Assembly (NCBI RefSeq): GCF_006385135.1
Contig: NZ_CP041025.1
Coordinates: 4,112,001 to 4,176,000 of the forward strand
DNA: 64,000 nucleotides
DNA from: Paremcibacter congregatus
GTDB lineage: Bacteria; Pseudomonadota; Alphaproteobacteria; Sphingomonadales; Emcibacteraceae
Direction: 5' to 3'
Part shown: piece after piece, positions 24,557 through 29,254 of the stretch
Layout: every line of letters starts with the position of its first letter
How positions within the stretch are numbered: position 1 is the first letter of the stretch
Program-made: the position numbers and the translations under genes
The notes under the pieces: model-generated
The model's input: the letters and a program-made list of their open reading frames with translations, nothing else
Told to the model about the DNA's origin: nothing
Database searches by the model: none

Positions 24557-24612
24557 TAAAAATGCCGTAAAGCATGAACCGAAAGGGGAAAATTATTTTT
24601 GAGGCATTTTTA
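24557..24612. repeat. Perfect 10-bp inverted repeat with 36-bp spacer
   Basis: TAAAAATGCC (24557-24566) and GGCATTTTTA (24603-24612) are exact reverse complements. As RNA they could close a long hairpin ending in a T-run, resembling a terminator; as DNA they could be an operator pair. It lies about 155 bp upstream of the cyclase gene. Confidence 0.6.
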
Positions 24613-24659
24613 TTAGTAATTTGTATTTAAAAAAATTATTTTATGTATATAATAATTTT
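24589..24659. repeat. Repeated AAAATTATT elements (two direct, one inverted)
   Basis: AAAATTATTTT occurs at 24589-24599 and again at 24632-24642, 43 bp apart. An inverted partner AATAATTTT lies at 24651-24659 and overlaps the candidate -10 TATAAT at 24648-24653. Such spacing around a promoter suggests a multi-site operator, but AT-richness alone could produce it. Confidence 0.45.
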
Positions 24660-24767: not shown

Positions 24768-25544
24768 ATGACAAATGAAACATTGACCAATCTGGTAAGT
24801 GATATGGCGACAGGCGCTATTCGGGTCGTGGACCTGTCAGTACCATTGGACGAAAATACGCAGGTAATCGGGTTGCCGGAGGAATTTGAACAATCTCCGG
24901 GATTTAAACTGGAACGTATTTCTCAGTATGATGACAAAGGGCCGGCCTGGTACTGGAACAAGATTTCTTGTGGCGAGCATACTGGGACTCACTTTGATGC
25001 ACCGGGTCATTGGGTCACGGGCAAGGATTATAATGATGGCTATACCGACACCATTGCTCCGGAAAAATTGATCGCTGCGGCAAATGTAATTGATGTCAGC
25101 AAGGAATCCGCCGAAGATGCGGATTATGTTCTTACGGCCGATAAAGTAAAGGCCTGGGAAGCGGAGCACGGCGCGATTGAAGCAGGGACCTGGGTGCTGA
25201 TGCGGACAGACTGGAGCAAGCGCACCGGTGCAGATTTTCTGAATATTGATGAAAACGGATCGCATTGTCCTGGCCCGTCACCGGATTGTATTGAATATCT
25301 GGTAAAAGAACGGGATGTTCTGGGATTTGGCGTGGAAACAGTCGGTACAGATGCGGGTCAGGGCTTTCACTTCGACCCACCGTTGCCGGCTCACACATTG
25401 ATGCATGGTAATAATAAGCTGGGTCTGGCGTCTTTGACCAATCTGGACCAGCTGCCGCCTAAAGGCGCCGTGATTGTTACGCCGCCCCTTAAAATCGTTA
25501 ATGGTTCCGGCAGTCCTTTGAGGGTTATTGCATTGGCCCCTTAA
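24768..25544 (+). CDS. Cyclase-family metal hydrolase (kynurenine formamidase-like)
   Basis: 258-residue member of the cyclase superfamily (PF04199), which includes kynurenine formamidase and isatin hydrolase; these are metal-dependent hydrolases of amides or cyclic imides. The signature HTGTHFDAPGHW (about 80-91) supplies the metal-binding His and Asp residues, and a VDLSVPLDENTQVIG strand lies near the N-terminus. The frame is open to 24621, but the ATG at 24768 with AAGAGAGG in front is the natural start. iorA begins 51 bp after it, suggesting a joint role in catabolism of tryptophan/indole-type or other aryl compounds. Exact substrate unknown. Confidence 0.88.
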   Translation: MTNETLTNLVSDMATGAIRVVDLSVPLDENTQVIGLPEEFEQSPGFKLERISQYDDKGPAWYWNKISCGEHTGTHFDAPGHWVTGKDYNDGYTDTIAPEKLIAAANVIDVSKESAEDADYVLTADKVKAWEAEHGAIEAGTWVLMRTDWSKRTGADFLNIDENGSHCPGPSPDCIEYLVKERDVLGFGVETVGTDAGQGFHFDPPLPAHTLMHGNNKLGLASLTNLDQLPPKGAVIVTPPLKIVNGSGSPLRVIALAP

Positions 25545-25595
25545 TGCTGTTGGGCTGGATTTACGACGACCTATTTTAAGAAGAGAGAGTAGACT

Positions 25596-27749
25596 ATGGC
25601 AGAGCGTTCCTTCGCCAAAGAGGTAAAAAAGCTGCGTCACGGCGCGGGAGAGGTGTTCCACGGAGAAGGTATTCTCGCGGTCACCAAAGGCTTGTTGCAA
25701 TCTGGTGTCGCCTATGTGGGCGGATACCAGGGCGCGCCGGTCTCTCATCTTATGGATGTGTTGGCGGATTCTCAGGAAATCTTATCCGAACTGGGAGTGC
25801 ATTTTGAAGCCAATGGCAGTGAAGCCACCGCGGCAGCGATGCTTTCGGCCTCCATCAGTTATCCTCTGCGCGGAGCCGTGACGTGGAAATCCACTGTGGG
25901 CACCAATGTGGCGTCTGATGCCTTGTCAAATCTGGCGTCTGCCGGGGTGATTGGCGGTACAGTGATTATCATCGGGGAGGATTATGGTGAGGGGGCCAGC
26001 ATTATGCAGGAACGCTCCCATGCCTTCGCCATGAAATCTCAAATGTGGCTGATCAATCCAAGACCGAACCTGCCCAAGATGGTTGATATGCTGGAAAAAA
26101 GTTTCCAGTTGTCCGAGGCCAGTAATACGCCACTGTTCTTTCAGATGCGTATTCGGGCCTGTCATCTGCATGGTCAGTTCGAAACCAAGGATAACCTTAA
26201 ACCGGCCTTTACCGTCAGAGATGCTTTGGAGAACCCTATTCGGGAGGCGGATAAGATCATTCTGCCGCCGTTTACCTTTCTGCAGGAAAAGCAAAAGATT
26301 GAAAAGCGTTGGCCTGCGGCGGTCGATTTTATCAAAGAGCACAATCTCAATGAATTATTTGACGGGCCGGAAAAGGATATCGGAATTATCTTTGAGGGTG
26401 GCCTGTACAATGTCGTAATCCGGGCACTACAGATGCTGGGTCTTGCTGACAGCCTCGGGGATACCCAGATACCGCTTTATGTTATGAATGTGACCTATCC
26501 GTTGATTGATGATCAGCTTGTCGTGTTTGCTCAGGATAAGAAAGCCATTTTGATGGTGGAGGAAGGTCAGCCAAATTATATCGAGCAATCGCTTAATAAA
26601 ATTTTCAATGATGCAAACCTTACCTGCAAAATATCGGGCAAGGATGTTCTGCCGGTTTCTGGCGAGTATACCGGGCAGGTGATGAAGGATGGCCTGAAGA
26701 ATTTTCTGGCCAAATATCGCCCCGACCTGGTGAAGTTTGACGAATTGGATGCGTCCGTAAGTGCGTTGGCTGATCTGAAGATCAGTGCGGATGCCCTTGA
26801 TAAAGCGATACCGGCCCGCCCGCCAGGATTATGTACCGGTTGTCCCGAGCGCCCCTTCTTTTCGGCAATCAAGATGCTGGAGAAAGACTATGGCGAAATT
26901 CATATTTCAGCAGATATTGGGTGTAATTCATTTGGCACGCTACCTCCGTTTCAGATTGGCAATACGATCATGGGGTACGGACTCGGGGCGGCCAGCAGCT
27001 CGGCCTTCAGTTCCGTGCGCGGCAAACGAGCCATTTCCATTATGGGGGATGGTGGGTTCTGGCACAATGGCCTGACCAGCGGGATTGGCAGTGCGGTATA
27101 TAACAACAGTGACAATGTCTTTATTATTGTTGATAATGGCTATGCGGCCGCGACCGGCGGGCAATATATCCCCTCCTCCGCCAAAAGCCTGAAAGAAGAC
27201 GAACGCAAAGCCCGCATACAGGAAGCGGTGCAGGGCGTTGGTGTGAAATGGGTGCGCACCATCAACAGCTATGACATTGCCGATGTCAAGGCGTTGGTGC
27301 ATGAAGCCATGACGTCACATTTTATTGGCCCCAAGGTTATTGTAATTGAAGGCGAATGCATGCTCAACCGCCAACGTCGGGAAAAACCGATCAAGGCGCA
27401 AAATATCAAATCGGGTAAGCGTGAGATCAAAGAACGTTTTTATGTGGAAAGTGAAACCTGTACAGGGGATCACGCCTGCATCCGTCTGTCCGGTTGCCCT
27501 TCCCTGACCATTAAACCCAATCCGGATGTGCTGCGGGAAGACCCGGTGGCTTATGTCGACAACAGTTGCGTCGGCTGCGGGGTATGCGGTGAAAATTCTC
27601 ATGCGGCGGTGCTCTGTCCGTCCTTTTCCCGCGCCGAACTGATCTTTAATCCCACAGGATGGGACAAATTTAAGCACGGCCTGCGTCAGAGCGTTATTGG
27701 CTACTTGCAAAAACGCGCCGATCGTCAGCGCGGGAGAATATCCTTATGA
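25596..27749 (+). CDS. iorA: Indolepyruvate ferredoxin oxidoreductase, alpha subunit
   Basis: 717-residue thiamine-diphosphate enzyme subunit that with IorB converts arylpyruvates (indolepyruvate, phenylpyruvate) to aryl-acetyl-CoA, passing electrons to a ferredoxin-type acceptor. In order: a pyrimidine-binding domain (about 20-200), a middle domain (to about 380), a TPP domain with CTGCPERPFFSA and MGDGGFWHNG (about 484) leading to the conserved VDNGYAAATGG, then a ferredoxin-like C-terminus. That C-terminus has CVGCGVC...CP (from about 657) and an atypical first group CTGDHAC...GCP (from about 622). It overlaps iorB by 4 bp (ATGA), so the subunits are translationally coupled. Confidence 0.92.
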   Translation: MAERSFAKEVKKLRHGAGEVFHGEGILAVTKGLLQSGVAYVGGYQGAPVSHLMDVLADSQEILSELGVHFEANGSEATAAAMLSASISYPLRGAVTWKSTVGTNVASDALSNLASAGVIGGTVIIIGEDYGEGASIMQERSHAFAMKSQMWLINPRPNLPKMVDMLEKSFQLSEASNTPLFFQMRIRACHLHGQFETKDNLKPAFTVRDALENPIREADKIILPPFTFLQEKQKIEKRWPAAVDFIKEHNLNELFDGPEKDIGIIFEGGLYNVVIRALQMLGLADSLGDTQIPLYVMNVTYPLIDDQLVVFAQDKKAILMVEEGQPNYIEQSLNKIFNDANLTCKISGKDVLPVSGEYTGQVMKDGLKNFLAKYRPDLVKFDELDASVSALADLKISADALDKAIPARPPGLCTGCPERPFFSAIKMLEKDYGEIHISADIGCNSFGTLPPFQIGNTIMGYGLGAASSSAFSSVRGKRAISIMGDGGFWHNGLTSGIGSAVYNNSDNVFIIVDNGYAAATGGQYIPSSAKSLKEDERKARIQEAVQGVGVKWVRTINSYDIADVKALVHEAMTSHFIGPKVIVIEGECMLNRQRREKPIKAQNIKSGKREIKERFYVESETCTGDHACIRLSGCPSLTIKPNPDVLREDPVAYVDNSCVGCGVCGENSHAAVLCPSFSRAELIFNPTGWDKFKHGLRQSVIGYLQKRADRQRGRISL

Positions 27750-29254
27750 GTACTTCCCTGATCACAAAAAATGATATTAACCGACCGATCACCATCGTTA
27801 TCTCGGCCCTTGGCGGGCAGGGAGGCGGGGTATTGACCAACTGGCTGGTGAGTCTAGCAGAACAACAGGGATATTTCGCGCAGTCGACATCGGTTCCCGG
27901 TGTCGCGCAGAGAACCGGGGCGACCATCTATTATTTGGAAATGTTTCCAAAATCTGCAGTAAAGGATAACGGGACACCGCCGATCATGGCGTTGATGCCC
28001 CTGTCCGGCGATGTCGACCTGGTGGTTGCGGCGGAACTGATGGAAGCTGGTCGCGCAGTGCAACGTCAGTTTGTCACGCCGAACAAGACGACACTCGTTG
28101 CCTCCACACACCGTGTTTTCTCCATAGCCGAGAAGATGGCCATGGGGGATGGGACCGGTGACAGTGAAACAGTTTTGCGGGCCGCAGAAGAAGCCGCGCA
28201 AAATTTCATCGCCTTTGATATGGAAAGCCTTGCGGCTGAGACGGGGTGTGTTATCAGTTCGATCCTGTTTGGCGCCATTGCCGGTGCCGGAGTATTGCCG
28301 TTCGGCCGGGAAAGTTTTGAAGAAGCCATCCGGGCCGAAGGTAAAATGGTTGATATTAACCTTAAAGGCTTTGCCGCAGGCTTTGCGGCGGCTGAAAGTC
28401 CTTATCAGGAAGAAATCGCCCTGCCTCCGGTGGCAGGAGAGATTACCGGTAATCCAAATGGCCCGGAAGCGCAGGCAAGAATCGACAGAATTAATCGGTT
28501 GCCGGATGCGGCGCGGGAATTTGCCTATGCCGGGGCCCAGAAGTTGCTCGATTATCAGGATCTGGATTATGTCGATGACTATCTGGATACATTGGAGGAA
28601 ATCGCCGCACAGGATCAGGCTCCCTTTGATCTTAGTCGCGAACTCGCCCGGTATCTGGCCTTGTGGATGGCCTTTGATGATACGATCAAGGTTGCGGATA
28701 TTAAAACCAGGTCAGAACGGGTGCGTAAATACCGCGCGGAGGTGCGGGCCAAGGATGATCAGATCGTTAATATGGTCGAATTCATGCACCCGCGACTGGA
28801 AGAAATCGTTGGCAGTCTGCCGATAGGGTTAGCGCGCCGGGTAGAGAAGTCCCCCCTGCTGACTCGCCTGTTCGAGAAATTTACAGGCCCCCGGCTTATG
28901 GACACCACGAAATTATCTTCTTTCCTGATGCTGTATTTTATGGCGTCCTTGCGGCGTATTCGGCGTAAAACATTGCGCTTTCATCAGGAACATGCGGCGA
29001 TTGACGGGTGGCTTGACCGTGTCCGGCGGGCGCTTTCTCAAGATAACGCCCTGGCGGTGGAACTGGTGCGATGTCAGCGGTTAATCAAGGGGTATGGTGA
29101 TACGCATGAGCGCGGTATGCGGAATTTTAATGCGATCATGTCTGTATTTGACCAGAGCGGTGGAAAGCTGCAGGCCGCACGTGTCTCTGTCCTGCGGGAT
29201 GCGGCGTTGGCGGATGAAGAAGGCGAAACGTTGAAAAAAGAACTGGCGGCGTAA
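27746..29254 (+). CDS. iorB: Indolepyruvate oxidoreductase, beta subunit
   Basis: 502-residue partner of IorA. Residues about 10-200 form the 2-oxoacid:ferredoxin oxidoreductase gamma-type domain with SALGGQGGGVLTNWL and VPGVAQRTGAT. The remaining ~300 residues are the helical extension (DUF6537-like) typical of aerobic proteobacterial IorB and absent from the short archaeal subunit. ATGA overlap with iorA; only 2 bp separate its stop from the convergent feoB. Confidence 0.9.
   Translation: MSTSLITKNDINRPITIVISALGGQGGGVLTNWLVSLAEQQGYFAQSTSVPGVAQRTGATIYYLEMFPKSAVKDNGTPPIMALMPLSGDVDLVVAAELMEAGRAVQRQFVTPNKTTLVASTHRVFSIAEKMAMGDGTGDSETVLRAAEEAAQNFIAFDMESLAAETGCVISSILFGAIAGAGVLPFGRESFEEAIRAEGKMVDINLKGFAAGFAAAESPYQEEIALPPVAGEITGNPNGPEAQARIDRINRLPDAAREFAYAGAQKLLDYQDLDYVDDYLDTLEEIAAQDQAPFDLSRELARYLALWMAFDDTIKVADIKTRSERVRKYRAEVRAKDDQIVNMVEFMHPRLEEIVGSLPIGLARRVEKSPLLTRLFEKFTGPRLMDTTKLSSFLMLYFMASLRRIRRKTLRFHQEHAAIDGWLDRVRRALSQDNALAVELVRCQRLIKGYGDTHERGMRNFNAIMSVFDQSGGKLQAARVSVLRDAALADEEGETLKKELAA

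Follow-up and report, generated by a model that had tools for sequence, protein, structure and literature searches.

The window analysed here, a stretch of 64,000 nucleotides from the genome of Paremcibacter congregatus, carries on its plus strand a trio of genes for a cyclase-family hydrolase (24768-25544, 258 aa) and the two subunits of an oxidoreductase, IorA (25596-27749, 717 aa) and IorB (27746-29254, 502 aa), present just as a sequence-only reading had first noted them. We read this trio, with a probability of about 0.7, as an isatin-opening middle module in which the hydrolase feeds IorAB and IorAB in turn feeds a 2-aminobenzoyl-CoA monooxygenase/reductase (ACMR). The trio would belong to a pathway of the iad type that degrades indole-3-acetic acid, or another source of isatin, by way of isatin; interest in the iad route stems from the protection that auxin-degrading root bacteria give to the growth of plant roots. 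In the proposed sequence, an iadFGH-DE-like operon would supply an isatin-level intermediate from auxin, the hydrolase would open isatin to isatinate (2-aminophenylglyoxylate), an aryl-glyoxylate, and IorAB would convert isatinate, coenzyme A (CoA) and oxidized ferredoxin to 2-aminobenzoyl-CoA (anthraniloyl-CoA), CO2 and reduced ferredoxin. ACMR would then take 2-aminobenzoyl-CoA into aerobic CoA-ester degradation. Computation established the gene identities, their linkage and conservation, and the existence in relatives of a single locus holding all three blocks described below.

The hydrolase is, by its sequence, most likely an isatin hydrolase, and manganese-dependent hydrolysis of isatin is predicted for it (the counterpart of IadI). 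It matches the Cyclase family (PF04199, 134.1 bits), and a phmmer search against the PDB returned the isatin hydrolases 5nnb, 5nna, 5nmp and 4j0n over the whole length with E values of 1e-96 to 7.6e-94, the next family member following at 2.7e-26. The manganese-site motif HxG[T/A]HxDxPxH occurs as HTGTHFDAPGH at residue 71, the aromatic pocket motif (WXW/FXW) as WYW ahead of it, and the GLAS/GLQC signature as GLAS at residue 219; both the metal motif and the description of GLAS as a signature of isatin hydrolase activity come from Sommer et al. (PMC6117287). The Labrenzia aggregata and Ralstonia solanacearum enzymes (PDB 5NNA/5NNB, 5NMP, 4J0N/4M8D) share these motifs and the whole-length match; unlike them, the putative isatin hydrolase of the window directly precedes iorAB. 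Among 58 hydrolase homologues in loci L026-L113, the metal motif was present in 58, the W-x-W/F motif in 57 and GLAS or GLQC in 52. The window genome also has two other genes of the cyclase family (L002, L003), which lack the metal and GLAS/GLQC motifs. The sequence-only reading had called the gene kynurenine-formamidase-like, and a kynurenine formamidase (KynB) feeding anthranilate formation would share the PF04199 fold family and the weak match to TIGR03035 that we observed. That match reaches only 23.1 bits, far below the cut-off of 223.05, and at the position of the I(L/I)E reported for KynB (PMC6117287) the protein has GLAS; on these grounds the identification was rejected, and we regard it as highly improbable. 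The companion suggestion, that the hydrolase opens an amide and feeds what follows, is most likely right: the amide would be a cyclic one, isatin, which was named there among the compounds to assay, and the product would pass to the oxidoreductase.

IorA and IorB belong to the type that serves as a marker of iad auxin-degradation loci, where they are named IadA and IadB. IorA contains TPP_enzyme_C (PF02775), a thiamine pyrophosphate (TPP) domain, and IorB contains POR (PF01558) and DUF6537 (PF20169); in a 105-row alignment, G484-D485-G486-G487 and 12 cysteine columns of IorA are invariant, and the pair thus has the TPP domain, the gamma (POR) domain and the iron-sulfur (Fe-S) cysteines of the 2-oxoacid:ferredoxin oxidoreductase superfamily. 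IorB scored 658.1 bits against NF006179 (PRK08312; cut-off 348), and IorA is 58-63% identical to the IorA proteins of Variovorax, Achromobacter, Bordetella, Aromatoleum and Bradyrhizobium loci. As is characteristic of IadA and IadB, the pair is accompanied by isatin hydrolase, IadD and IadF, though at separate loci in the window genome. In Bradyrhizobium japonicum, auxin induces both ior genes, 7.64- and 30.70-fold (PMC3788728). A phmmer search for a solved relative of IorA gave none at 0.001, a profile search gave only four weak TPP-enzyme matches (best E 0.0013), and for IorB there was none at 0.1. The IorA structure model (mean pLDDT, a per-residue confidence score, 65.8, which is low; pTM 0.55) matched a Helicobacter pylori Oor chain and oxalate oxidoreductase with target TM scores of 0.60 and 0.63, along with a large number of other TPP enzymes; since its pLDDT is low and 48 of the 50 listed Foldseek rows are TPP enzymes other than ferredoxin oxidoreductases, it lends weak support.

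Phenylglyoxylate and indolepyruvate:ferredoxin oxidoreductases have the 2-oxoacid:ferredoxin chemistry, the TPP and the Fe-S cysteines in common with IorAB; unlike them, IorAB would act on 2-aminophenylglyoxylate, and IorA scores below the indolepyruvate oxidoreductase equivalog cut-off (TIGR03336, IOR_alpha, 281.8 bits against 650.9). IorAB could nevertheless be the indolepyruvate (arylpyruvate):ferredoxin oxidoreductase of its annotation, joined to isatin only through shared indole chemistry, as the family names in NCBIfam and the plasmid annotations, the partial TIGR03336 similarity and an aspartate aminotransferase family gene in one of eight annotated plasmid loci (Ruegeria) would suggest. 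We consider this improbable: the score is far below the cut-off, the genome has another Ior-like gene (C1:1026075-, a 1196-aa open frame with 25% identity), hydrolase and ACMR genes recur beside iorA (in 80 loci that were not searched for aminotransferases), and a basal clade of IorA has a mandelate-type context. The arylpyruvate function was therefore set aside on the curated cut-off and on gene context. From that same context we infer the substrate specificity of IorAB, its CoA product, its ferredoxin acceptor and the flow between blocks: isatinate is an aryl-glyoxylate, and an enzyme of the IorAB type turns a 2-oxoacid into an acyl-CoA, so the product would be 2-aminobenzoyl-CoA, the substrate of ACMR. 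The end product proposed from the sequence, an aryl-acetyl-CoA, is accordingly revised to an aryl-carboxyl-CoA. We judge it reasonably probable that IadAB makes 2-aminobenzoyl-CoA directly from isatinate, that the outlet of the iad pathway is this CoA ester plus reduced ferredoxin and not free anthranilate, and that in the family of P. congregatus the module from isatin to 2-aminobenzoyl-CoA is near-core and independent of auxin oxidation. Isatin hydrolase, the IadAB genes and ACMR are each already known, and the iad route itself is in print; what we found without a published role is the IorAB step. In the open-licence literature we found no paper assigning IadAB to the conversion of isatinate to 2-aminobenzoyl-CoA, although subscription papers or supplements may hold it.

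The partner genes of iorA point in the same direction. For the 80 top-ranked IorA loci, out of at least 582 from named genomes, partners were located by tblastn with identity thresholds of 48% for the hydrolase and 40% each for ACMR and IadD, and because of these thresholds weaker homologues are uncounted. The hydrolase was found in 53 loci, ACMR in 34, IadD in 14 and any of the three in 58; of the downstream enzymes searched for, ACMR was the most frequent partner. Of the loci with ACMR, 30 of 34 also had the hydrolase, as did 13 of the 14 with IadD. Where the locus extended over at least 22 kb (47 of the 80), the corresponding numbers were 39 for the hydrolase, 27 for ACMR, 13 for IadD and 42 for any, with the trio order in 11. 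Over all 80 loci the trio order occurred in 21, four of them from the window's family (L026, L027, L028, L066) and 17 from outside it; the three-gene order, for which the sequence-only reading had proposed a search, thus recurs beyond one lineage with consistent partner genes. In the IorA tree (built by a quick method with no bootstrap, and excluding IorA chains shorter than 900 bases) the trio order is clustered, with 36 rows and four changes, at least two of which are forced by well supported branches.

In the window genome, no single-cluster iad locus was found, the trio (starting at C1:4136768), IadD and ACMR lying at three separate places on C1. An iadFGHDE-like operon at C1:about 1145.6-1151.4 kb (IadD at C1:1149566-) encodes an AMP ligase (IadF), a thiolase (IadG), a zinc-ribbon protein, a short-chain dehydrogenase/reductase (SDR; IadH) and Rieske alpha and beta subunits (IadD, IadE). 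Identity to the Azospirillum proteins is 51% for IadF, 49% for IadD and 33% for IadE, and identity to those of Variovorax L063 is 54% for IadG and 60% for IadH. The third block, at C1:135-145 kb with ACMR at C1:138073-140373, comprises genes for an enoyl-CoA hydratase (ECH), an acyl-CoA dehydrogenase and a RidA, all divergent from those for ACMR, an SDR and a MarR, followed by one for an AMP ligase that is closest to benzoate-CoA ligase and slightly below the model cut-off. Compared with the published iad loci of Variovorax, Bradyrhizobium and Achromobacter (PMC9613470, PMC12633357, PMC11630574), the window genome has the same IorA/IorB type, the hydrolase and homologues of IadD, IadE, IadF, IadG and IadH; unlike those loci, it is split into three chromosomal blocks, lacks a MarR gene in the three neighbours scanned around the trio, and has a rubredoxin-rubredoxin reductase fusion divergent from iadF with no iadC-type reductase in the ten genes scanned at the iad-like operon. 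This fusion (L134 2121-3494; C1:about 1144.1-1145.5 kb) is a candidate electron donor to IadDE replacing the IadC reductase.

The three blocks are joined in relatives. In a Haliea species (L031) and a gammaproteobacterial metagenome-assembled genome (L083), all of them lie in one run of 17-18 kb, in the order IadE-D-H-zinc ribbon-G-F-RidA, hydrolase-IorA-IorB, ECH-SDR-ACMR and MarR; an acyl-CoA dehydrogenase match was present in L031 only, and no separate benzoate-CoA-ligase match was seen in either run. Their ACMR proteins are strongly similar to that of the window genome (61-65% identity), whereas ECH and acyl-CoA dehydrogenase are weakly so (25-28%), and their IorA proteins group with the window's in a clade of 18 rows, all with the trio (SH-aLRT branch support 95). 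In a sister genus (g5), the trio is followed by a MarR, an AMP ligase, a divergent MarR, ACMR and a thioesterase, with a divergent set of SDR, ECH, acyl-CoA dehydrogenase and RidA. ACMR, AMP ligase, SDR, ECH, acyl-CoA dehydrogenase and RidA are common to the sister genus, the window genome and the aerobic 2-aminobenzoyl-CoA (ACMR) pathway of Azoarcus evansii; unlike that pathway, the one proposed here would be entered through an oxidative decarboxylase and not solely through an ATP-dependent ligase. As a separate observation, a 273-aa protein without a Pfam match is conserved beside the isatin/2-aminobenzoyl-CoA cluster in five loci (in the sister genus, L122 4205-5026).

Several results weigh against the assignment of IorAB to 2-aminobenzoyl-CoA formation, or against parts of it. 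The NF006101 family, named salicylyl-CoA 5-hydroxylase/oxidoreductase, is one that we take to be ACMR; the window-genome protein scores 1241.7 bits against its cut-off of 1078, and the sister-genus L122 protein reaches 996.3 bits, below that cut-off. The anthranilate-CoA ligase and putative ACMR of Arthrobacter (PMC3534580) help this equation. None of the three partners was found in 22 of the 80 IorA loci (five of them among the 47 long ones). A shared operator upstream of the three blocks was sought as palindromes and shared 10-12-mers, which yielded only AT-rich 10-mers and nothing convincing. Moreover, the IorA proteins of the sister genus lie in another part of the IorA tree than the window's, and conservation across the family is therefore not one simple inheritance.

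Published genetics add further points. According to a 2025 preprint, anthranilic acid returns in full when a Variovorax locus deletion receives iadC-K2 (PMC12633357), and iadAB was thus apparently unneeded for free anthranilate there: iorAB ends just before the iadC-position gene in two other Variovorax loci, for which reason the iadC-K2 strains are probably without iadAB. The same strains accumulate C8H7NO3 and C7H7NO, both treated by the authors as intermediates (PMC12633357); by formula, in our own reading and not theirs, these fit isatinic acid and 2-aminobenzaldehyde, a pile-up that would follow from the absence of the enzyme that consumes isatinate. The preprint also revises the early steps, to an epoxide and then dioxindole-3-acetic acid, and finds that iadI deletion accumulates C8H7NO2 (PMC12633357), which by our reading matches dioxindole in formula and does not match isatin. 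Its authors call IadI a possible broad-specificity amidase, without showing isatin as a substrate (PMC12633357), so that in Variovorax isatin is only a putative substrate of IadI.

These data bear on a variant in which IorAB acts on isatinate and yet the pathway physiologically ends at free anthranilate, through hydrolysis of the CoA ester or some other decarboxylation of isatinate, and a CoA ligase then re-activates the anthranilate. The published iad work stops at free anthranilate as the end product, which is restored without iadAB; thioesterase genes adjoin iorB or ACMR in some loci; and an AMP ligase closest to the benzoate-CoA ligase family TIGR02262 (335.4 and 367.5 bits for the two tested, cut-off 375.25) accompanies ACMR in 11 of 34 loci, as well as in the sister genus and in the window genome. 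Such a ligase would be needless were IorAB the sole source of the CoA ester, which argues that free anthranilate is also used. Against this, the variant would waste the thioester that ACMR is thought to need, the two one-locus clusters (L031, L083) have no separate benzoate-CoA-ligase match, and the ligase may serve anthranilate derived from tryptophan. A tryptophan dioxygenase match, found in 18 of 32 family genomes, marks a possible anthranilate feeder of ACMR and says nothing on isatin. We hold free anthranilate as the outlet to be unlikely.

We examined conservation of the isatin-opening module in 32 genomes of the window's family. The hydrolase is present in 28, IorA in 29, both in 28, and in 27 the two genes lie no more than 250 bp apart. 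Adjacency was counted from the 28 hydrolase places at 53% identity or higher, leaving out 16 weaker cyclase matches (33-42%), and from 32 of 35 IorA rows, the three omitted being second pieces in genomes already counted. The sole genome with both genes non-adjacent (G001) has them 4454 bp apart; G010 has IorA at a contig end and no hydrolase, and G002, G023 and G030 have neither gene. An ACMR match was found in 31 of the 32. In a sample of 398 genomes from the phylum, the window's own included (hydrolase at E<=1e-60, IorA at E<=1e-120), the hydrolase was found in 25, IorA in 29 and both in 23 (Fisher p ~1e-29, uncorrected for relatedness); the two shared a contig in 20 of the 23, 16 to 27170 bp apart, and were on different contigs in three. 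The association is incomplete, a point against the proposed pathway: six of the 29 genomes with IorA have no hydrolase, and two of the 25 with the hydrolase have no IorA. Purifying selection acts on the trio, also relative to two IadD-less relatives: the ratio of nonsynonymous to synonymous substitution (dN/dS) was 0.04-0.10 in eight of nine comparisons (one was saturated) with G004, which has IadD, and with G014 and G015, which do not, a rough estimate given dS values of 1.4-3.4.

IadD, by comparison, is present in only five of the 32 family genomes, so that in most relatives auxin is no more than a possible source of isatin; a Rieske alpha (PF00848) match occurs in 24, and seven trio-bearing genomes have none. 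These counts weigh against the proposed pathway. It is possible, if doubtful, that in the family the trio serves mainly in salvage or detoxification of isatin, taken from outside or formed by indole oxidation, with the iad oxygenase a patchy addition. The counts of 28, 29 and 31 genomes for hydrolase, IorA and ACMR against five for IadD, and the low dN/dS relative to the IadD-less G014 and G015, suggest as much. Set against it are the iadFGH-DE-like operon that the window genome does carry, the incompleteness of several family genomes, and the chance that an isatin-forming enzyme unlike IadD exists, the search for one having been limited to PF00848. Salvage of this kind is compatible with the isatin-opening module proposed here, and the family result points to isatin use independent of the known auxin oxygenase. 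Two further sequences were observed in this sample, an IadD homologue with one in-frame TAG (G027:C110:88904-90220) and an 847-aa frame with a two-piece match to ACMR (G002:C4:741764-744136), the latter in a family f1 genome that is listed as 100% complete and has neither hydrolase nor IorA.

In the published passages, the two genes that mark the iad locus are given no reaction, and a defined one would show the fate of the carbon. If the proposed reaction is right, auxin carbon would leave as a CoA ester entering ring degradation, the intermediates piling up on iadC-K2 overexpression may be explained, and genomes able to use the carbon of auxin or isatin could be recognized.

Within the window, the coordinates confirm the spacing claimed earlier: the hydrolase and iorA are separated by 51 bp (25545-25595), and iorA and iorB overlap by 4 bp. 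The mechanical open reading frame (ORF) of the hydrolase begins at a TTG (24621); we set the start at the ATG (24768, to the stop at 25544) because the similarity to homologues starts at residue 5 counted from that ATG. Upstream are 431 bp and then a divergent 438-aa ORF without a Pfam family, and downstream of iorB lies feoB in convergent orientation, so the trio reads as a three-gene operon. The three scanned neighbours (the 438-aa protein, feoB and an SDR) are unrelated to it, and the earlier remark on the absence of CoA ligase, aminotransferase and phenylacetate genes nearby is correct for these three, the relevant ligases being elsewhere in the genome. An AT-rich block upstream of the trio (24606-24634, no strand assigned), a putative operator or promoter element, is recognizable by eye in four of five aligned relatives, all four of the same genus and not in G003 of another genus. 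Promoter-like hexamers occur at 24626-24653, in a 5.3-kb scan that gave 14 matches against 5.4 expected.

Outside the trio-bearing loci, the IorA tree has a basal clade of six rows without the hydrolase, split from the main IorA rows by four columns (M137, D513->K, G522 and N591). It includes a Variovorax boronicumulans plasmid locus (L109 13998-24574) with iorAB beside a flavin mononucleotide (FMN)-dependent 2-hydroxyacid dehydrogenase, an ATP-binding cassette (ABC) transporter and a mandelate-racemase-family gene; the pair of dehydrogenase and racemase-family gene was found in none of the 80 IorA loci. The locus is a candidate mandelate/phenylglyoxylate cluster, which fits aryl-glyoxylates as substrates (mandelate to phenylglyoxylate to benzoyl-CoA). 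On a Variovorax linuron plasmid (L111 1-16301), an iorA of the same family lies between IS1071 copies, with iorB unlisted and a tblastn match to iorB near 12.4 kb. Finally, a Shinella plasmid (L107 6996-16785) and a Ruegeria plasmid (L106) carry iorAB with a nitrilase-type hydrolase, a cupin, a fumarylacetoacetate (FAA) hydrolase, a racemase-like gene, a thioesterase and two MarRs, a gene set that may represent a gentisate-type outlet.

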